Source: an uncultured Verrucomicrobiota bacterium (GTDB taxonomy: Bacteria; Verrucomicrobiota; Verrucomicrobiia; Opitutales; Intestinicryptomonadaceae). Taken from it: a stretch of 64,000 bases of DNA. Position 1 is the stretch's first letter, and each line of letters begins with the position of its first letter. A program made the translations under genes and the position numbers. Below the pieces are notes generated by a model. It was not told the origin of the DNA. It was given only the letters and a program-made list of their open reading frames with translations, and did no database searches. Location: positions 1 through 64,000 of the forward strand of contig CASFDK010000006.1 in the NCBI GenBank assembly GCA_949293415.1, written 5' to 3'. Positions 12,836 through 42,924 of this stretch are shown here, one piece after another.

Positions 12836-14407
12836 ATGCGAACCGCAAAAAAAATATTATACACCCTTACAACCGCCGCAATATTTCTGTCGGCACAACT
12901 TTATGCCGACATCAAACTGCCGCGCATATTCTCCAACTCGATGGTTCTGCAATGCGGCGAACCCGTCAACGTGTGGGGCAAAGCCGCGCCGAACGCAAAA
13001 GTCGAAGTTGCGTTCGCAAACCAGAAGGTCTCGACAAAGGCGGGCGCGGACGGTTCGTGGAGCGTAAAACTTGCGGCGATGAAACCGTCGGCGCAGGGCG
13101 CAACGCTCACGGTCTACGAAAACGGCGCGCCGAAGCGGACAATCTCCGACGTGCTCGTGGGCGAAGTGTGGATTGCGGGCGGTCAGAGCAATATGGCGTT
13201 CGGGCTGAAGGGCGCGGACGGCTCTAAGGAGCTTATCGAAAACGCGAACAATTCGCTCATACGCTATTTCAATATGGGGGGAACGCCGCGCATGCGAAGC
13301 CTCGACGGAATCGGCAAAAACCCCGAGTGGGACTGCGTGAGGGGCGCAAGCTGGCTCGTTTGTTCGCCAAAAAACGCCGAATACAGCTTCAAAGCAGTCC
13401 CCTACATCTTCGCGCGCGACTTGGCAAAAAAGCTCAACATCCCCGTCGGCATAGTCTACACCGCAATTCCGGGGACGAATATGCGTTCGTGGATTCCCCG
13501 CGCCGACTTCGAAAACAACCCGAAATTCGCAAGGCAGAAGGAACTCTTCCAAAATAAAATCAAAAACTACGACGCAAAAAAAGCCCTCGAAAAATACGAG
13601 GAAAGCGTCCGCACCTACCCCGAACGCGTCGCAAAAGCGAAAAAGGAGGGATACCGCCCGCCCGAAGCGTGGACAATCTCGGAGGAAATGCGCCCGTGGA
13701 GGGATTCGCCCGACAGATGGGCCTCGCCGTGTATGCTCTACAACATCAGAATCGCACCGATAAGGAATTTCACGGCAAGGGGAATCGTCTGGTATCAGGG
13801 CGAAGCCGATTCGCACATCGACTATTTCGACACGCTCTTTACCGCCTTTATCGAAGTCTGGCGCAGGGAGTTCGGCAAGCCGAATATGCCGTTCGTGTTC
13901 GTACAGCTGCCGTCGTTCGAAAGCAAAAACTGGTGTAAAATCCGCCTGCAACAACAGAACGTTGCCGACAAAATCCCGAACGTGTATATGGCGACTACCG
14001 TCGATACGGGAACGAAAGACGACATCCACCCGCACGACAAACTTCCCGTGGGCGAACGTCTGGCTGCACTTGCACTCGCCAAAATCTACAAACTCGAAGA
14101 CGTGCGCGCATGCGGTCCGAAGGTGAAGTCGGTCCGCTACGAAAACAACGGCGCGCTTGTTGCATTCAACACATACGACAAACTCCAAACGCGCGGCGAA
14201 CTGCGCGGTTTCGAAGTTTTGGCGGACGGCAAATGGATCGCGGCAAAGGCGAATTTGCGCGGCAATTACATCTCGGTTTACACGCCCGACAAAAAGGCGA
14301 AAGTCTCGGGTGTGCGCTACCTCTATAAAAACTGGGCAAAACCCGACGTCTGCCTGTACGACGACAAAGGCTTCCCCGCCTATCCGTTCGAAGACGTAAA
14401 AAAGTAG
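12836..14407 (+). CDS. sialate O-acetylesterase paralogue 1
   Basis: This 523-residue secreted SGNH-type esterase has a signal peptide at about 1-24. The N-terminal beta-sandwich-like part has LPRIFSNSMVLQ and YENGAPKRTISDVLVGEVW. The catalytic block GGQSNM puts the nucleophile at Ser118. WYQGEAD near residue 325 and DDIHPHDK (Asp-His pair) near 399 complete the SASA/SiaE pattern. The enzyme removes O-acetyl groups from sialic acids or acetylated plant sugars. It is the first of four tandem paralogues and the most divergent of the set together with the fourth. A promoter lies about 80 bp upstream. Confidence 0.88.
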   Translation: MRTAKKILYTLTTAAIFLSAQLYADIKLPRIFSNSMVLQCGEPVNVWGKAAPNAKVEVAFANQKVSTKAGADGSWSVKLAAMKPSAQGATLTVYENGAPKRTISDVLVGEVWIAGGQSNMAFGLKGADGSKELIENANNSLIRYFNMGGTPRMRSLDGIGKNPEWDCVRGASWLVCSPKNAEYSFKAVPYIFARDLAKKLNIPVGIVYTAIPGTNMRSWIPRADFENNPKFARQKELFQNKIKNYDAKKALEKYEESVRTYPERVAKAKKEGYRPPEAWTISEEMRPWRDSPDRWASPCMLYNIRIAPIRNFTARGIVWYQGEADSHIDYFDTLFTAFIEVWRREFGKPNMPFVFVQLPSFESKNWCKIRLQQQNVADKIPNVYMATTVDTGTKDDIHPHDKLPVGERLAALALAKIYKLEDVRACGPKVKSVRYENNGALVAFNTYDKLQTRGELRGFEVLADGKWIAAKANLRGNYISVYTPDKKAKVSGVRYLYKNWAKPDVCLYDDKGFPAYPFEDVKK

Positions 14408-14448
14408 GACGACGGAGAATTTCAAAAAAACAACAAGCAACAGAAATT

Positions 14449-15993
14449 ATGAAAAAATACCTATATATGTTAGCGGCAATCGCCGCGACGCCGCTTTTCG
14501 GCAAAATCGAAATGCCGAAAGTTTTCTCGGACTATATGGTTCTGCAACGCAACGAAAACGTCAACATTTGGGGCACATCCGAACCGAACGCAACGGTCGA
14601 AGTGCAGTTTAAGGAGCAGAAAAAATCGACAAAAGCCGACGACAAGGGCAACTGGAACGTACGTCTCGACAAAATGCCCGCCGACAAAACCCCGCGCCAA
14701 ATGGCCGTCTTCGAAAACGGCAAACAGGAAAAACAGTTCGGCAACATCCTCGTGGGCGAAGTGTGGGTTCTGGGCGGTCAGAGCAATATGGCGTGGACGG
14801 TCTCGGGCTCGATGGGCGCAAAAGAGGCGTTGGAACGCGCGGCGGCAAACAAAAACATCCGCTACTTCTGGCAGCCTTCGTCGGCGATGGCGAAGAATCC
14901 GAGAAAGGATTCCCCGAATGACGCACATTGGGAAACGGGCAAAAACGCCGGACGCTGGAGCGGCGTGGGATATTTCTTCGCCGAAAAAATCAACGAAAAG
15001 CTCGGAGTTCCCGTGGGTCTTGTGTTTGCGGCGCAGGGCGCAACGGAGATGTCCTGTTGGGTCGAAAAATCGGCGGCACTCAAAAACCCCGCGATGAAGA
15101 AAATTTGGGAAGACTTCCAAAAGGAGGCGGCGAACTACGACGAAGCCGCATACCAGAAGGCGTGCGCCGACTATAAAAAATTCGTCGCCGACCTCGCCGC
15201 CGAAAACGCGCAGCGCAAGGCGAAAGGGCTCAAGGAAAAGAAAATGCCGTGGGACAAAAAAGAGCCCAACAAAATTTCGCCGCGTCCCGACTTCCGCTCG
15301 CCCGTGTACAAATACAACGCAATGGTATCGCCCCTGCACGGCTACACCGTCCGCGGCGCAATCTGGTATCAGGGCGAATCCGACACGAAAGAGCCGAACG
15401 TGACGCATTTCGAATCGCAAATGAAGCTTGTCGTCTCCGAATGGCGCAAATACTTCGACAACCCCGAAATGCCCTTCATTATGGCGCAACTTTCGTCGTA
15501 CTCGTACGGCAACGAGGGTTGGGTAAGGGCGCGCGCGGCGCAGCTAAAAACCGCAAACGATGTCGAAAACGTCTTCACAATCCCCACAATCGACAAGGGT
15601 ATGAAGCTCGACATCCACCCCAAGGACAAAACCACGGTCGGCGTGCGAATGGCAAATATGGCACTCTCGCAGGTCTACGGAAAAAAGAGCGTAAAGCCGT
15701 TCGCGCCGCAATTCAAATCGGCAAAATACGAGGGCGACACCGCAACCGTGCGTCTCGAAACGTACGGAGTTCCGCTTTCGCTAAAAGGCGGGGAACGCGG
15801 ATTCGAAGTGCGCGCAAACGGCAAGTGGAGCGAAGCTCAGGCGAAGCTTGCCAGCGGCAAACTCTTGGTAAAGTCGAAAGACGGCGCGAAAGTGGACGGC
15901 GTGCGCTATCTATGGAAGGCGTATCCGCAGGAGGAAATCTGCATCTACAACACCGAAGGGCTGCCGCTCTTCCCGTTCTCGAACGAAAAATAG
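14449..15993 (+). CDS. sialate O-acetylesterase paralogue 2
   Basis: This 514-residue exported paralogue has a signal peptide of about 18 residues, then IEMPKVFSDYMVLQR, the nucleophile motif GGQSNM (Ser112), WYQGESD and LDIHPKDK. It is closest to paralogue 3. They share long stretches such as KADDKGNW, RLDKMPADKTP and TTVGVRMANMALSQVYGKK with nearly the same codons. It starts 41 bp after paralogue 1. The gap is A-rich and lacks a Shine-Dalgarno. The substrate is probably O-acetylated sialic acid of mucin, inferred from the family and the cluster. Confidence 0.88.
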   Translation: MKKYLYMLAAIAATPLFGKIEMPKVFSDYMVLQRNENVNIWGTSEPNATVEVQFKEQKKSTKADDKGNWNVRLDKMPADKTPRQMAVFENGKQEKQFGNILVGEVWVLGGQSNMAWTVSGSMGAKEALERAAANKNIRYFWQPSSAMAKNPRKDSPNDAHWETGKNAGRWSGVGYFFAEKINEKLGVPVGLVFAAQGATEMSCWVEKSAALKNPAMKKIWEDFQKEAANYDEAAYQKACADYKKFVADLAAENAQRKAKGLKEKKMPWDKKEPNKISPRPDFRSPVYKYNAMVSPLHGYTVRGAIWYQGESDTKEPNVTHFESQMKLVVSEWRKYFDNPEMPFIMAQLSSYSYGNEGWVRARAAQLKTANDVENVFTIPTIDKGMKLDIHPKDKTTVGVRMANMALSQVYGKKSVKPFAPQFKSAKYEGDTATVRLETYGVPLSLKGGERGFEVRANGKWSEAQAKLASGKLLVKSKDGAKVDGVRYLWKAYPQEEICIYNTEGLPLFPFSNEK

Positions 15994-16038
15994 TGGCTTC
16001 GGAAACGTATTTTCCACACATATAAACACATAGTAAAT

Positions 16039-17592
16039 ATGAAAAAATATCTTTATGCAATAGCGGTGCTTTCCGCCGCAATTCCGCTTTTCGGCAAAAT
16101 CGAAATGCCGAAAGTTTTCTCCGACAATATGGTTTTGCAACGCAATGCCGACGCGAAAATCTGGGGCACATCCGAGCCGAACGCGACGGTCGAAGTGCAG
16201 TTTAAGGGACAGAAAAAATCCGCAAAAGCCGACGACAAAGGCAACTGGAGTCTGCGCCTCGACAAAATGCCCGCCGACAAAACCCCGAACAAAATGACCG
16301 TTTTCGAAAACGGGAAAGCCGACAAGACAATCGAAAACATCCTCGTGGGCGAAGTGTGGGTTCTGGGCGGTCAGAGCAATATGGAATGGTCTCTGCGCGC
16401 CACAACCGACGCAAAAGCCGCAATAAAACGCGCCGACTCAAACAAAAACATCCGCTACTTCAAACAGGACGGACAAGCGTATGCCAGAACGCCGCAGAAA
16501 GACTCGCCCGAAGGTTCGCAGTGGCAGTGCTGCAGCGGCAAAACGGTCGCGGGCTGGAGCGCGGTCGGCTACTACTTCGCCGAAAAAGTCGCCGAAAAGC
16601 TCGACGTTCCCGTGGGGCTTCTCTACACCGCGCTCGGCGCGACGCAAATGATTATGTGGGTCGAGGAAAGCGCAGTCGAAAAGAATCCCCAAATGAAAGC
16701 GCATTGGGAAAGATTCAAAAAGGAGCTCGCCGCCTACGACGAAGCAGCCTACCAAAAAGAGCTCGCAAAATGGAACGCCGAAAAGGCGGAATACGACAAA
16801 CAAAACGCAATCCTCAAAAAACAGGGCAAGCCCCTCAAGTGGTTCCCGTGGGACAGACGCAGACCGCCCTCGCGCGTCTCGCCGAAAGCCGCGTTCTTTA
16901 CGCCCGTGTTCAACTACAATGCAAAGGTCGCGCCGCTGCGCGGCTACACTGTCCGCGGAACGCTCTGGTATCAGGGCGAGGGCGACGCGGGCAGCGAGAG
17001 CGTCGAAAAGTTCGAGTCGCAAATGAAACTTGTCGTCTCCGAATGGCGCAAATATTTCGACAACCCCGAAATGCCGTTCATTATGGCGCAGCTCTCGTCG
17101 TTCGCCGACAAAAGCAACTGGGCGTACGCGCGCGAAGCGCAGCTTAAAACGGCAAACGATGTGCCGCACGTCTTCACAATCCCGACGCTCGACAGGGGAA
17201 TGGAAAAGGACATCCACCCCAAGGACAAAACCACGGTCGGCGTGCGTATGGCAAATATGGCACTCTCACAGGTCTACGGCAAAAAATGCGTAAAGCCGTT
17301 CGCGCCGCAATTCAAGTCGGCGGAATACGACGGCGACACCGCGACCGTGTGCATTGAAACGAACGGAGTTCCCGTTTCCATCAAGGGCGAAGCGAAGGGC
17401 TTCGAGGTGCGCTCGAACGGCAAATGGGGCAAAGCTTCGGCGGAACTCAAGGGCTGCAAACTTTCGGTAAAGTCCAAAGACGGCTCGAAAATCGACGGCG
17501 TACGCTACCTCTGGAAAAGCTGCCCGCTCGGCGAAATCTGCGTCTACAACGCAAACGGGCTGCCGCTCTTCCCGTTCTCGGACGGGAAATAA
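16039..17592 (+). CDS. sialate O-acetylesterase paralogue 3
   Basis: This 517-residue secreted paralogue has a signal peptide to about residue 19, GGQSNM with Ser113, WYQGEGD and KDIHPKDK. Its middle helical insertion (about 225-280, rich in Lys, Glu and Trp) differs from those of its neighbours and may form the substrate entrance. It starts 45 bp after paralogue 2 and ends 18 bp before paralogue 4, so the four are probably one transcript. Near-identical DNA tracts with paralogue 2 indicate recent duplication or gene conversion. Confidence 0.88.
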   Translation: MKKYLYAIAVLSAAIPLFGKIEMPKVFSDNMVLQRNADAKIWGTSEPNATVEVQFKGQKKSAKADDKGNWSLRLDKMPADKTPNKMTVFENGKADKTIENILVGEVWVLGGQSNMEWSLRATTDAKAAIKRADSNKNIRYFKQDGQAYARTPQKDSPEGSQWQCCSGKTVAGWSAVGYYFAEKVAEKLDVPVGLLYTALGATQMIMWVEESAVEKNPQMKAHWERFKKELAAYDEAAYQKELAKWNAEKAEYDKQNAILKKQGKPLKWFPWDRRRPPSRVSPKAAFFTPVFNYNAKVAPLRGYTVRGTLWYQGEGDAGSESVEKFESQMKLVVSEWRKYFDNPEMPFIMAQLSSFADKSNWAYAREAQLKTANDVPHVFTIPTLDRGMEKDIHPKDKTTVGVRMANMALSQVYGKKCVKPFAPQFKSAEYDGDTATVCIETNGVPVSIKGEAKGFEVRSNGKWGKASAELKGCKLSVKSKDGSKIDGVRYLWKSCPLGEICVYNANGLPLFPFSDGK

Positions 17593-17610
17593 CATACACA
17601 AACACACACA

Positions 17611-19158
17611 ATGGGAAAATATCAGAAAATAATACTAACCGCCGCCGCATTTTTTGCGGCGGCAACGGTATTCGGCGAGATAAAAATGTCGTCGATTTTC
17701 GCCGACAATATGGTGCTTCAGCGCGACTTCGCCGTAAAAGTCTGGGGCGATGCCGCGCCGAACTCGACTGTCGAAGTGCGATTCCGCGGGCAGAAAAAAT
17801 CCGCAACATCCGACGATAAAGGCGCGTGGAGCATCCGGCTCGACAAAATGCCCGCCGACAAAACCCCGCGCGAAATGACGGTTTCGGAAAACGGGAAAGT
17901 CGGCAAACGCATCAAAAACATCCTCGTGGGCGAAGTATGGATTCTGGGCGGTCAAAGCAATATGGCGTGGACGCTCGAAAAATCCGATGGCGGCGACGAA
18001 GCTGCGGCGCGCCTAAAATATCCCGACATCCGCTACTTCAACCAGAATTGCCGCGCGATGTCGAAAACCCCGCGCAAGACGATGTACGACGCGTCTTGGC
18101 TCGAACTGTCGCCCGAAAACGCCCCGAAACTCAGCGCGGTAGGCGTTCTCTTCGCCGAAAAGCTCCGCGCCGATTTGGACGTGCCTGTGGGGCTCGTTTT
18201 CACTGCGCTCGGAGCGGCGCAAATGGTCGTCTTCATTCCGGAGGAAAAATGCGCGACGCTCGAATACACGCGCGGCGTATCCGAAAACTTCGTCAAACGC
18301 AACGCTACCTATTCGTACGAAAACGCGATGAAATCGTACAAACGCAAACGCGCCCAATGGGAGGCGGAGCGCGAAAAGGCGAAGAGCGAAAACAGACCGC
18401 ACGCGGAAAAGTTTAACCATCCCGTGCCGAACAGGTACAGCTTTCTGCCGCCGTTCTGCACGCCGTTCTACGTCTACAACGCGGTTGTTGCGCCGCTTGC
18501 GGGCTTCGGCGCGCGGGGTGTGCTGTGGTATCAGGGCGAGTCCGATTCGGCGGACGGGCGGCTCGAAAATTTCGGCGAACAATTCGGTCTGCTCGTATCG
18601 AGTTGGCGCGAAAAATTCGACAATCCAGATCTTTATTTCCTGACAGTCCAGCTTGCGTCGTACGAAGTGGCAAAGCGCGACTGGGGCTTGACGCGCTGGA
18701 AGCAGTATATGGCGGCAAAGTCGCTGCCGAAATGTTTTGCTGTTAACAATGTCGATTGCGGCGAAGCCCGAGACATCCACCCGAAAGACAAGCTGACCGT
18801 TGCAACGCGCCTCGAAAAAACAGCCCTGCGCGAAGTCTACGGACGCGAAGACGTGCGCTCGCGCTTCCCGTCGCTGAAGGAAGTCCGATACGACGGCGGC
18901 TCGGCGGTCGCATCGTTTGCCGTCGACTCGGGGAAACTCGAAATGCGCGGCAAACCGCGCGGCTTCGAAGCGAAAGTCGGCGGGGAATGGACTGCCGCAA
19001 ACGCCGAACTCTGCGGGAATGCGGTCAAAATCTCCGTCGGAAACAGGTCTGCGAAAATCGACGGCGTGCGCTATCTCTGGAAAAACTGGGCGCGCCCCGA
19101 TGTCTGCCTTTACGACACAAATGGACTGCCCGCGTTTTCGTTCACGCACGAAAAATAG
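17611..19158 (+). CDS. sialate O-acetylesterase paralogue 4
   Basis: This 515-residue secreted paralogue has a signal peptide of about 22 residues, IFADNMVLQRDFAV, GGQSNM with Ser116, WYQGESDS and ARDIHPKDK. The catalytic set is complete, so it is probably active. It starts 18 bp after paralogue 3 with no visible Shine-Dalgarno. The gene for a beta-helix enzyme follows under its own promoter. Four copies of one esterase in a row suggest specialisation for different acetyl positions or dosage, which is inference. Confidence 0.87.
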   Translation: MGKYQKIILTAAAFFAAATVFGEIKMSSIFADNMVLQRDFAVKVWGDAAPNSTVEVRFRGQKKSATSDDKGAWSIRLDKMPADKTPREMTVSENGKVGKRIKNILVGEVWILGGQSNMAWTLEKSDGGDEAAARLKYPDIRYFNQNCRAMSKTPRKTMYDASWLELSPENAPKLSAVGVLFAEKLRADLDVPVGLVFTALGAAQMVVFIPEEKCATLEYTRGVSENFVKRNATYSYENAMKSYKRKRAQWEAEREKAKSENRPHAEKFNHPVPNRYSFLPPFCTPFYVYNAVVAPLAGFGARGVLWYQGESDSADGRLENFGEQFGLLVSSWREKFDNPDLYFLTVQLASYEVAKRDWGLTRWKQYMAAKSLPKCFAVNNVDCGEARDIHPKDKLTVATRLEKTALREVYGREDVRSRFPSLKEVRYDGGSAVASFAVDSGKLEMRGKPRGFEAKVGGEWTAANAELCGNAVKISVGNRSAKIDGVRYLWKNWARPDVCLYDTNGLPAFSFTHEK

Positions 19159-36140: not shown

Positions 36141-37166
36141 CTACGCCCCCCGCTTCGCGGGTTTTAGCGAGCACACGAGCGACGAGACTATCAGCGCGAT
36201 TCCCGTCAATCCCGTTACGATTTCGGGCACTTCGCGGATTGTCGAAACGAACATCAGCGCGGCGAGCGTGCCTATCGCCCAATATGCGCCGTGTGTAAGA
36301 TAGCAAAGTTTGTCGAGCGTCTTTTTCTCCACGAGCGCCACCGTAAGCGACCTCACGAAAAACGCGCCCACAGCCAAGCCGAGCGCGATAATCATAACGT
36401 CTTTCGTGATTGCAAACGCCCCCAAAACGCCGTCGAGCGAGAACGACGCGTCGATGAGTTCGAGATACACAAACGCCATCAGACCCGCGTGTTTGAGCGC
36501 GAATGCGTGTTGCGCCGCCGCCATTTTCTCGAGCTTCGCGCTCGCGCCGTGTATCGCCAAGTGTATCGCTACCCCCGCAACCCCCGCGACAAGCGACATC
36601 GCGATTTCATCGCGGGGAAGCAGCGTCTGCACAACGCCGAGCATTGCCAATGTCAACAGTGTCGGAGCGGCTTTGAAACGCCCCAGTTTGTGAAGCGGTT
36701 TTTCGAGCGCGGAAATCCAATGGACGCTCTTTTCGCGGTCGAACATAAACTCGAAAAACAGCATAAAAAGGAACGCGCCGCCGAACGACGAAATGCCGAC
36801 GTGCGCGTGCGAAAGCAGCCGCGCATACTCGTCGGGATTGTGCAACGCCAAGTCGAGCACCGCCCTGCACGATATGCCCGAGAACACCGCAACAATCACA
36901 ATGGGGAAGACAAATCGCATACCGAAAACCGCTATCGCAATACCCCAAGTCAGAAAACGCCGCCGCCAGATTTCCGACATTTTTTCGAGCTTTGCGGCGT
37001 TGATTACGGCGTTGTCGAACGAAAGGCTGATTTCGAGCGCACTGATAATCAGAGCCGCCACCACGTCCTTGAATCCCAAGCCCGCCTGCATCGACTCCCC
37101 GCGCCAGAACGCGAAGACAATCCCGCCGATTAACACGCCGAACGACCATTTGAAATATTTCATCAT
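36141..37166 (-). CDS. DUF475/TerC-superfamily membrane protein
   Basis: This 341-residue protein has about eight transmembrane segments. The family motif ALEISLSFDNAVINAAKL is near residue 45 and LIDASFSLDGVLGAFAIT near 235, both with membrane-buried acidic residues. LLPRDEIAMSL lies between them. DUF475 proteins belong to the TerC-like group linked to metal-ion or tellurite handling. It lies between the diadenylate-cyclase gene (70 bp) and aroC (77 bp) on the same strand. A role in metal export is an inference. Confidence 0.82.
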   Translation of the reverse strand: MMKYFKWSFGVLIGGIVFAFWRGESMQAGLGFKDVVAALIISALEISLSFDNAVINAAKLEKMSEIWRRRFLTWGIAIAVFGMRFVFPIVIVAVFSGISCRAVLDLALHNPDEYARLLSHAHVGISSFGGAFLFMLFFEFMFDREKSVHWISALEKPLHKLGRFKAAPTLLTLAMLGVVQTLLPRDEIAMSLVAGVAGVAIHLAIHGASAKLEKMAAAQHAFALKHAGLMAFVYLELIDASFSLDGVLGAFAITKDVMIIALGLAVGAFFVRSLTVALVEKKTLDKLCYLTHGAYWAIGTLAALMFVSTIREVPEIVTGLTGIALIVSSLVCSLKPAKRGA

Positions 37167-37235
37167 AATAAGAAAATTTGCCGACTTTGTCGAAGTCGGC
37201 AGATATATATTGTTGTCTATGTTATTTGGTAAAAA

Positions 37236-38639
37236 TCACTCGCGCTTTTTTTCCGTAATCGGCAGCATTTGCCCGCGTCGGAAAAGAGTTATCTGCCCCG
37301 TGCTCGACGAAACAACAAGCGATATGCAGTTTGCCATCAGCGAAATCGAATACGCCGCCGCGTGGCGCGCGCCGAGCCCCCCCGGGAGCTGCAACTTGAA
37401 GTCGGGCGTATGGATTAGCGACCCCGCCGACTCCAAAATTCCGCCGCCGTCGATTATGAACGCCCCGTCGATTAGCGAATACTCCTTCACGGTTTCGTCC
37501 ATAAACGGATTGAGAATGTTTCTGTCTTCGGGCTTGTAGCCGTAGAACGGATTGAGAATGAGCTGCTTGATGTGCGAGCGCAGTTCGTTGACATCGCCGA
37601 TTACGAAAATACAGCCCACGGGTTTGCCCTCGCGCCCCTCCACCGAAAGCTCGGTTGCGATGTCGATTACGCGCTCGATTACCTCGGGCTTTACGCCTTC
37701 GGGCAGAAAATTTTTGCGCCCGATAAACACGTCGGCGTATTCCTTTTCGATGTCGAGCGAGACAATCGTGTCTATTTTGTTGCTCTCGAGCACGCCGCCT
37801 ATGCAGCAGAGTTTGTCCTTAAGGCTGAAAACGCCGCGCGTAAGCCCTATCATCATCGCGCTCCGAAGCTGCGAAAATCTCGATTTCGAGAACGCCCTGA
37901 CGTTGATGACCTGCCAGGACGACGGCACGGGAAACGTGGGTTTCTCGGTTATCACCACGACGCGCATACCCTCGAGCCGCTTGGTGAGGTCGGGGAATTT
38001 TTCGAAAGTATCGCCCTGTATGAGAATAATCGAACATTTCGAAATCTTGGCGATTTTCACCGCCGAACGCATAATGAGGTCGTTTGTCTTCGCCTGTTCG
38101 GCGAGTTTGCGGCGCGTAGCGCGGTCTATTTTCTGGGCTTTTCCGCCGGCGGCGGGCTTTGCGGCGGCAGGCTTTCCCGCCGAAAAAATCTCAGCCACGG
38201 CGTTTTTAAACGCAGCCAAATCGGCGGACTGCTTGATTTTCCGCACGACATCCGAATCTCCCGAAAATATTTTCGCGAGAACCGAAAGCGTGTCCATATA
38301 CGACTCGACGTGGTCGTCCGAGAGCAACAGAAAGACCGTGCAAATGTTTTTCGGCTCTTCGTTGTCCCTGATTTTTACGGGGTGCGTGCAACGCCCAACG
38401 GCAAGAACGTATTTTTCCCTCAGCCCCTCGATTCGCATATGCGGCATACAGACACCGCTTTCGAGGTATGTGGAAATCGCGTTTTCGCGCTCCACAAGCC
38501 CCTGCATAATCGCGTTTCTGTCCGCCGCGCCGAGCGCGGCATCGGGTATTGTGCCGAGCAGTTCCGCCAAAACGCCCTTGAAATCGGCACTTTCAATGTC
38601 GATTATGCGCGACTTTTTGAAGAATCTTCCCAGCTGCAT
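37236..38639 (-). CDS. PTS EIIA - diadenylate cyclase (DAC) fusion
   Basis: This 467-residue protein joins two known modules. Residues about 1-150 form an EIIA (fructose/nitrogen type) domain with the phosphorylatable His67 in CMPHMRIEGL. An Ala/Lys-rich linker (about 155-180) leads to an alpha/beta region (about 185-270) resembling the pyruvate-kinase-C-like domain of DacZ-type cyclases. The C-terminus is a DAC domain with DGAFIIDGGG near 390 and GARHAAAYSIS near 425. The usual RHR motif reads RHA, so activity may be altered. If active it would make c-di-AMP under control of PTS phosphorylation, which is inference. It follows nuoA by 5 bp. Confidence 0.78.
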   Translation of the reverse strand: MQLGRFFKKSRIIDIESADFKGVLAELLGTIPDAALGAADRNAIMQGLVERENAISTYLESGVCMPHMRIEGLREKYVLAVGRCTHPVKIRDNEEPKNICTVFLLLSDDHVESYMDTLSVLAKIFSGDSDVVRKIKQSADLAAFKNAVAEIFSAGKPAAAKPAAGGKAQKIDRATRRKLAEQAKTNDLIMRSAVKIAKISKCSIILIQGDTFEKFPDLTKRLEGMRVVVITEKPTFPVPSSWQVINVRAFSKSRFSQLRSAMMIGLTRGVFSLKDKLCCIGGVLESNKIDTIVSLDIEKEYADVFIGRKNFLPEGVKPEVIERVIDIATELSVEGREGKPVGCIFVIGDVNELRSHIKQLILNPFYGYKPEDRNILNPFMDETVKEYSLIDGAFIIDGGGILESAGSLIHTPDFKLQLPGGLGARHAAAYSISLMANCISLVVSSSTGQITLFRRGQMLPITEKKRE

Positions 38640-41355: not shown

Positions 41356-41398
41356 AATGTTGCATATGCGCCGATTCGCAGTTGAATCGACCCGAACA

Positions 41399-41756
41399 AT
41401 GAAAGGATACACTGTTATGAAAAAATACAAATGCCAAGTCTGTGGATACGTCTACGAACCCGAAAACGGAGACCCCGACAACAACATTCCCGCGGGAACG
41501 CCGTTCGAAAAACTGCCCGAAGACTGGGTGTGTCCGCTCTGCGGCGTGGGCAAAGACCAATTCGAGGAAGAGGAACAATGAAAGGATACACTGTTATGAA
41601 AAAATACAAATGCCAAGTCTGTGGATACGTCTACGAACCCGAAAACGGAGACCCCGACAATAACATTCCCGCGGGAACGCCGTTCGAAAAACTGCCCGAA
41701 GACTGGGTATGTCCGCTCTGCGGCGTGGGCAAAGACCAATTCGAGGAAGAGGAAGA
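41399..41756 (+). repeat. 179-bp tandem duplication of a rubredoxin gene
   Basis: Units 41399-41577 and 41578-41756 are almost identical and differ at only a few positions (for example AAC/AAT and GTG/ATG codon changes). Each carries AAAGGA and a complete rubredoxin frame. The unit length is not a multiple of three, so each copy uses its own start, and the first stop (TGA) overlaps the ATG of the second unit. Confidence 0.93.
41417..41581 (+). CDS. rubredoxin, copy 1
   Basis: This 54-residue rubredoxin carries one Fe(Cys)4 site, CQVCGY near the N-terminus and CPLCG near residue 40. [18 protein letters not shown] is the classical family stretch. It is an electron carrier to the flavodiiron protein two genes on. 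AAAGGA 10 bases upstream favours the ATG at 41417; an in-frame ATG at 41399 would add MKGYTV. It ends in a poly-Glu tail (EEEEQ). It differs from copy 2 only at the last residue. Confidence 0.93.
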
Positions 41757-41760
41757 ATAA
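41596..41760 (+). CDS. rubredoxin, copy 2
   Basis: This 54-residue rubredoxin is identical to copy 1 except that the final Gln is Glu. Both CxxC motifs are intact. It arose from the 179-bp tandem duplication and uses the duplicated AAAGGA site. Its stop codon abuts the ATG of the flavodiiron gene, and its Glu codons (GAGGAAGAGG) also act as that gene's ribosome binding site. Doubling the donor gene probably raises the electron supply; divergence is too small to suggest a new role. Confidence 0.93.
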
Positions 41761-42924
41761 ATGAAGAAAATCGCGGACGGCGTTTTTTATTGCGGAATCC
41801 ACGACCGGCAGCGTAAGGTTTTCGACCAGCTCGTGCCGCTTCCGCAGGGCACAACGTACAATTCCTACTTGGTCAAGGGCGCGGACAAAACCGCGCTCGT
41901 CGACACAATGTACGAAAAATTCGGCGGTCAATATATGGATGCGATTGCCTCTTCGGGCGAAAAAATCGACTACATCATATCGAACCACGCCGAACCCGAC
42001 CACAGCGGAATGATTCCCAAACTTCTCGAAACATTCCCCGAAGCGCGGGTCTGCTGCTCGTCCAAATGCGCCGAAAACCTGCAAAATATGCTCGGCGTAA
42101 ATCCCGAGCGAATCGACACGGTCACCGACGGGCAGGAGCTGCCGCTCGGCGGCAAAACCCTCAAGTTTATACCGACCCCGTGGGTGCATTGGCCCGACAC
42201 AATGTGCACGTTTCTCGTCGAAGACGCGTTCCTGTTCTCGTGCGACTTTTTCGGTGCGCACTACACAAAGCACGAACTTTTCGCCGACTGCTCGCCCGAT
42301 TTGGCTCTGGCGGCAAAACGCTATTACGCCGAAATAATGATGCCGTTTGCAAATTTCTGCGCAAAATACCTTGCCAAAACGCGAGCCCTTGCGCCGAAAA
42401 TGATTCTGCCGAGCCACGGTCCCGTCTACAGGGGCGGGGATGTGGAATTTATCCAAAACCTGTACGCGCAGTGGACATCTCCCGCCGCGTCGAAGAAAGT
42501 GATTATCGCGTACGTTTCGATGTACGAAAACACAACGCTGATGGTGGACTACCTCGAAAACGCGCTCAAAAAACGCGGAATCGAAACGGCGAAAGCCGAC
42601 CTGATGGAAATAGACGAAGGCGAACTTGCAATGGAACTTGTAGACGCGTCGGGCTTGGTATTCGGCACGTCGATGCTCTTGACGGGACCGCACCCGAAAT
42701 CGATATACGCGGCATACTTGGCGAACATTCTGCGTCCCAAGCTGAAAGTTTCGGCGGTAATCGGCTCGTTCGGATGGGCGGGCAATATGACTGCGCCGAT
42801 AGAGGCGATGTTCACACAGACAAAGCCCGAAAAACTTCCGCCCGTACTGGCAAAAGGCAGACCCGACAAAAAAACGTTCGAAGAACTCGAAACCTTGGCG
42901 GAAACAATGGCGGCAAAGCTATAA
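41761..42924 (+). CDS. flavodiiron protein (rubredoxin:oxygen/NO oxidoreductase)
   Basis: This 387-residue class A flavodiiron protein reduces O2 to water or NO to N2O, protecting an anaerobe. The beta-lactamase-like domain carries the diiron ligands in HAEPDHSG (His76, Glu78, Asp80, His81), with later ligands in SCDFFGAH and LPSHGPVYRG. A flavodoxin domain follows (about 245-387, IIAYVSMYENTT for FMN). It starts immediately after the second rubredoxin stop, so donor and acceptor are one operon. Confidence 0.95.
   Translation: MKKIADGVFYCGIHDRQRKVFDQLVPLPQGTTYNSYLVKGADKTALVDTMYEKFGGQYMDAIASSGEKIDYIISNHAEPDHSGMIPKLLETFPEARVCCSSKCAENLQNMLGVNPERIDTVTDGQELPLGGKTLKFIPTPWVHWPDTMCTFLVEDAFLFSCDFFGAHYTKHELFADCSPDLALAAKRYYAEIMMPFANFCAKYLAKTRALAPKMILPSHGPVYRGGDVEFIQNLYAQWTSPAASKKVIIAYVSMYENTTLMVDYLENALKKRGIETAKADLMEIDEGELAMELVDASGLVFGTSMLLTGPHPKSIYAAYLANILRPKLKVSAVIGSFGWAGNMTAPIEAMFTQTKPEKLPPVLAKGRPDKKTFEELETLAETMAAKL

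Follow-up and report, generated by a model that had tools for sequence, protein, structure and literature searches.

The window, the whole stretch of 64,000 nucleotides of Opitutales DNA that was analysed, contains a dacD-like gene whose 467 amino acid open reading frame starts with ATG and occupies exactly 37236..38639 on the minus strand. The protein has an N-terminal EIIA domain, a middle alpha/beta domain and a C-terminal diadenylate cyclase (DAC) domain, as the sequence-only reading had proposed; Pfam domains, an AlphaFold2 model and Foldseek matches all agree, NCBIfam also bears on the assignment, and the middle domain can now be named DacZ_P (PF21755). All parts of the gene given below lie on the same strand.

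The EIIA-2 domain covers residues ~1-153 (38181..38639), with a Pfam PTS_EIIA_2 match (PF00359) at residues 39-147 (E 6.5e-15), an IIA-Ntr fold match, sequence conservation and a phmmer alignment to PtsN. It contains Arg51 (codon 38487-38489), His67 within the motif CMPHMR (codon 38439-38441), which is intact as had been claimed, and Tyr114 (codon 38298-38300), which the PtsN alignment places at the site of the usual second EIIA His. The linker that follows (residues ~154-176; 38112..38180) varies in length and is gapped in most relatives. DacZ_P, probably the sensor domain of archaeal DacZ cyclases, spans residues 188-300 (37740..38078; E 2.1e-7), and its Pfam match, like that of PTS_EIIA_2, is above the gathering cut-off. 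The DAC domain (PF02457; 37269..37646) is found at residues 332-457 with E 2.2e-17 and 63.2 bits against a cut-off of 27. A CdaA_N transmembrane domain had no Pfam match in the 467 amino acid protein.

The AlphaFold2 model, made with 44 family members as input, has a mean pLDDT of 86, falling below 50 in a flexible linker at 156-168. Its pTM is 0.58, low enough that the model does not fix the relative placement of the domains. When the model was used as the Foldseek query against the PDB, the DAC part matched Listeria monocytogenes CdaA (6hvm, E 1.1e-8, TMt 0.70, prob 1.00), with DisA structures also among the fold matches, and the EIIA part matched the IIA-Ntr structures 2a0j (TMt 0.83) and 1a6j (TMt 0.80). 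Pfam and Foldseek thus both find the C-terminal DAC fold on which the earlier proposal had staked its case. The full-length architecture is kept across ~25 family-level groups of Opitutales and so is not a chance fusion.

The gene nuoA, for complex I subunit A (PF00507; 38645..39049, minus strand), lies 5 bp upstream of dacD. It is the immediate 5′ neighbour of dacD, in the same orientation, in 52 of 60 large genomes vs 0 of 16 small genomes tested, and nuoA-dacD is a conserved gene pair. A hairpin resembling an intrinsic terminator just 3′ of dacD (37179..37201, minus strand; from a consensus scan only) suggests a nuoA-dacD transcript. We speculate that joint expression of dacD and complex I would suit an input from the energy state.

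Other genes of the window were noted as well. In some members of the genus dacD is followed by the gene for a DUF475/TerC-family membrane protein (36141-37166 in the window), which may be a metal connection for a cyclase that depends on Mn2+. A tandem 179-bp duplication, 98% identical (41394-41758), has given two near-identical rubredoxin genes, which precede a rubredoxin-oxygen oxidoreductase-like flavoprotein (41761..42924). At 12836-19158, four consecutive genes encode ~515 amino acid proteins that each carry a SASA domain (sialic acid acetylesterase), and a beta-helix protein comes next.

Active-site motifs and the predicted product

The DAC domain has DGA at 391-393 and RHA in place of RHR at 425-427, both as the sequence-only reading had described. 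The third motif (G-A-R-H-A at 423-427) reads GARHAAA and departs from the full GxRHRxA pattern, and the SEE motif is also altered, to S-S-S at 444-446. We aligned the orthologues from 124 genomes. Asp391, Gly392, Arg425, His426 and Ser444 are each present in 124/124; position 427 is Ala in 100, Ser in 13, Met in 4, Thr in 4, Val in 2, Gly in 1 and Arg in 0 of the 124. At position 446, the site of the metal-ligand Glu of SEE, 122 genomes have Ser and two have Thr. Two haloarchaeal DacZ sequences, both above the NCBI DacZ equivalog cut-off and neither of them that of Haloferax volcanii, read GTRHHAA and SES. By this comparison the missing second Arg is a trait of the branch, normal for the clade and no private mutation, and an Arg at the third RHR position is not diagnostic for DacZ-like proteins.

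As an alternative, the changed third motif had earlier been suggested to mark a protein that binds c-di-AMP but does not make it. Such a catalytically dead sensor of c-di-AMP or ATP would bind nucleotide in its DAC domain and give its output through EIIA. The change of RHR to RHA and of SEE to SSS would fit, as would the inactivity of RHR-to-AAA mutants of DisA, CdaS and CdaM (PMC3328451, PMC4568413, PMC13022847), but in those mutants the His and the first Arg were removed as well, and both are invariant in the Opitutales proteins. For CdaA, the list of ATP contacts comprises the SEE residues and, from GTRHR, the Thr, the His and the first Arg; the second Arg is absent from it (PMC7288161). 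The loss of that Arg gives no ground to call the enzyme dead, since it is clade-wide, is shared by haloarchaeal DacZ, falls outside those contacts, and the published mutants are triple. The haloarchaeal proteins have both departures, the search of the genome gave no second DAC, a PgpH-type phosphodiesterase is present, and in genomes without a phosphotransferase system (PTS) it is the DAC and not the EIIA domain that survives. We reject the dead-sensor reading of RHA on the clade comparison and consider a protein of this kind very unlikely.

DacZ of H. volcanii, an essential protein, synthesizes c-di-AMP and accepts Mn2+ as its only metal (PMC6741144). By analogy with such relatives, we predict with good confidence that the window protein catalyses c-di-AMP synthesis. 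It would do so from ATP, probably with Mn2+, at a DacZ-type site that has DGA, an RH lacking the second Arg, and SxS for SEE. A different cyclic or linear dinucleotide as the product is highly improbable: the active site departs from CdaA and DisA at two motifs, but DacZ relatives with the same motifs make c-di-AMP and the PgpH-type phosphodiesterase is co-distributed with the cyclase. The clade-wide loss of the RHR Arg and of the SEE metal Glu is a caution against calling DAC proteins dead by motif.

The genome encodes a PgpH with 7TMR-HDED, 7TM and HD domains, which would degrade the signal. PgpH occurs in 39/42 genomes with a DAC vs 2/7 without (Fisher 5e-4), or 39/42 vs 1/4 (p 0.005) once three poor or blank assemblies are removed, so assembly gaps partly inflate the association. 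The c-di-AMP riboswitch RF00379 was not found in this genome, and one of 54 relatives has a match.

Distribution in the Opitutales

A DAC match was found in 47 of 54 relatives and in 119 of 132 Opitutales members, nearly always as a single protein of ~450-470 amino acids. In a sample of the phylum, genomes of other Verrucomicrobiota orders have high-scoring DAC proteins of ~290 amino acids, and those that were read have GTRHRAA and are of the CdaA kind. By these surveys the EIIA-DAC fusion is the Opitutales' own form of the enzyme, in place of CdaA, usual in the order and mostly the only copy. No other DAC, canonical or otherwise, was found in the window's genome (94.8% complete). A phage search gave weak matches and nothing stronger. 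One genome of the same genus (G010) had no match with any family and was treated as uninformative.

Several near-complete Opitutales genomes encode EI, with DAC undetected: G036, G351, G389, G399 (f19 g21), G370, G345 and G393. G036 is also without PgpH. These genomes have apparently lost c-di-AMP signalling. Genomes of family f8 have a second DAC protein of ~400-440 amino acids (L002 1123-2328, also L094, L095 and L096), with CdaA_N and DAC and then, by eye, a CdaR/YbbR-like stretch; it has RHA or RHS and keeps SEE. Some large-genome Opitutales have EIIA-less DacZ-like paralogues of ~300 amino acids with DGG, RHV or RHL, and SES (L175, L176, L177 and L178), and the same three-gene set precedes three of these four.

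The phosphotransferase system and the fate of EIIA

The genome encodes one HPr and one EI (TIGR01417, E 1.7e-167), with intact active-site motifs GIHARP and GSQTSHTAI, respectively. Its sole EIIA-2 domain is the one fused to the cyclase; several genomes of the same family additionally have stand-alone EIIA in open frames of 140-174 amino acids. EIIC of the PF02378 type was found neither in this genome nor in the 22 relatives' genomes searched, and the PTS is transport-less as far as that type of EIIC is concerned. The domain has the EIIA fold and a phosphorylatable His, which is kept in 88 of 98 genomes with EI. From the sequences, HPr probably phosphorylates the EIIA domain in this organism.

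The Arg51/His67 pair is complete in 85/98 genomes with EI vs 0/23 small genomes (0.8-1.1 Mb) in which EI was not found. The Fisher value of 7e-16 ignores kinship and overstates the evidence, because the small genomes represent only one or two PTS losses on the tree; a test corrected for relatedness has 1-2 independent pairs and is not significant. In the small genomes R51 is replaced by H, K, S, Q, L, G or C and H67 by Y, C, N or L, and f25 and two of the f26 genomes have lost the whole EIIA domain. The fraction of conserved sites retained there is 0.59 for EIIA, 0.81 for the middle domain and 0.87 for DAC. These varied routes of decay beside a preserved DAC are suggestive of EIIA decay following PTS loss. 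One genome in which EI was not found (G001) keeps both residues. Thirteen genomes with EI have an altered R51 or H67, including f4 (H67Y), f19 (H67S/C) and G012 (H67Y); phosphorylation is therefore not needed everywhere, as some lineages with EI have lost His67.

The Tyr, Ser or Cys at His67 in several EI-containing lineages would also be expected if EIIA were a docking or structural domain (for HPr, a transporter or another protein) of an active c-di-AMP synthase, with no control by phosphorylation. The Tyr found throughout at the second catalytic His and the lack of a PF02378 EIIC partner in 22 genomes point the same way. Against this stand the intact EI and HPr of this genome, and the retention of R51 and H67 where EI is present but degradation or deletion of the domain in the small genomes without a PTS. 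We regard docking alone as unlikely.

On balance, the best explanation overall is an active DacZ-type cyclase whose output is controlled by a PTS-phosphorylated EIIA. The sole detected diadenylate cyclase, a DacZ-type DAC with DacZ_P, would receive phosphate from EI and HPr on its N-terminal EIIA domain. PEP-driven phosphorylation of His67 may change how the EIIA/DacZ_P part packs and so the DAC:DAC pairing, and the c-di-AMP level would thereby be tied to the PEP/pyruvate (energy) state. Both the modification of His67 and its effect on cyclase rate are putative; we infer that regulation of the DAC by phosphorylation is fairly likely. The link from PTS to c-di-AMP that had been proposed from this gene alone gains genomic support from EI, HPr, the sole EIIA-2, the sole DAC, PgpH and the EIIA decay in PTS-less relatives. 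Only tentatively do we extend it to the order, where the PTS, without PF02378-type sugar transport, might mainly feed the EIIA of the sole c-di-AMP synthase, with PEP/pyruvate setting c-di-AMP and with PTS loss followed by EIIA decay and a cyclase that runs without input.

As an input to c-di-AMP synthesis, whose metabolic control is little understood, a PTS phospho-acceptor fused directly to the cyclase is unusually easy to read. The H67Y proteins, the R51 changes and the EIIA-less forms are ready-made natural controls.

Comparison with known cyclases and PTS proteins

DacD is already a named class of the Corrigan and Gruendling 2013 scheme, with members in Lacunisphaera, Coraliomargarita, Puniceicoccaceae and Opitutae (PMC6741144). 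The window gene occurs in the same taxa, and DacD is a DAC class of its own. Placed by the taxa it shares with the listed members, it probably belongs to DacD and would add to a class that is known but functionally unstudied. Literature searches found no functional study of DacD or of an EIIA-diadenylate cyclase fusion, and no description of DacD motif statistics, EIIA/PTS co-decay or the nuoA pairing. The 2013 review may draw a PTS EIIA domain for DacD.

A tree of DAC sequences places archaeal DacZ, the Opitutales fusion proteins and the EIIA-less Opitutales paralogues together on one side of a 100/100 branch that separates them from CdaA. The window protein has DacZ_P beside DAC and clusters with DacZ over CdaA. 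Its best NCBIfam match is the DacZ equivalog NF041371 (E 1.6e-28), with 99.8 bits vs a cut-off of 430 bits. Judged by tree and score, it represents a branch homologous to haloarchaeal DacZ and is not an orthologue.

DacZ/CdaZ of Euryarchaeota (H. volcanii DacZ, Methanocaldococcus jannaschii CdaZ) has the same DacZ_P-DAC core but lacks EIIA. The haloarchaeal DacZ sequences read here share RH without the second Arg and the altered SEE motif, which is SES in them and SSS in the window protein. Halobacterial dacZ is operonic with mscS, whereas the window gene is found with nuoA. CdaA/DacA, the membrane cyclase of most other Verrucomicrobiota and of Firmicutes, shares the DAC fold and the DGA/RH core, but has CdaA_N, RHR and SEE; the window protein has RHA and SSS, lacks CdaA_N and falls on the separate 100/100 branch. 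PtsN (EIIA-Ntr) has the same EIIA-2 fold, Arg51 and His67, whereas the window EIIA is fused to DAC and has Tyr at the second His. PtsP carries an N-terminal extension, whereas the EI of this genome begins directly at the EI N-terminal domain.
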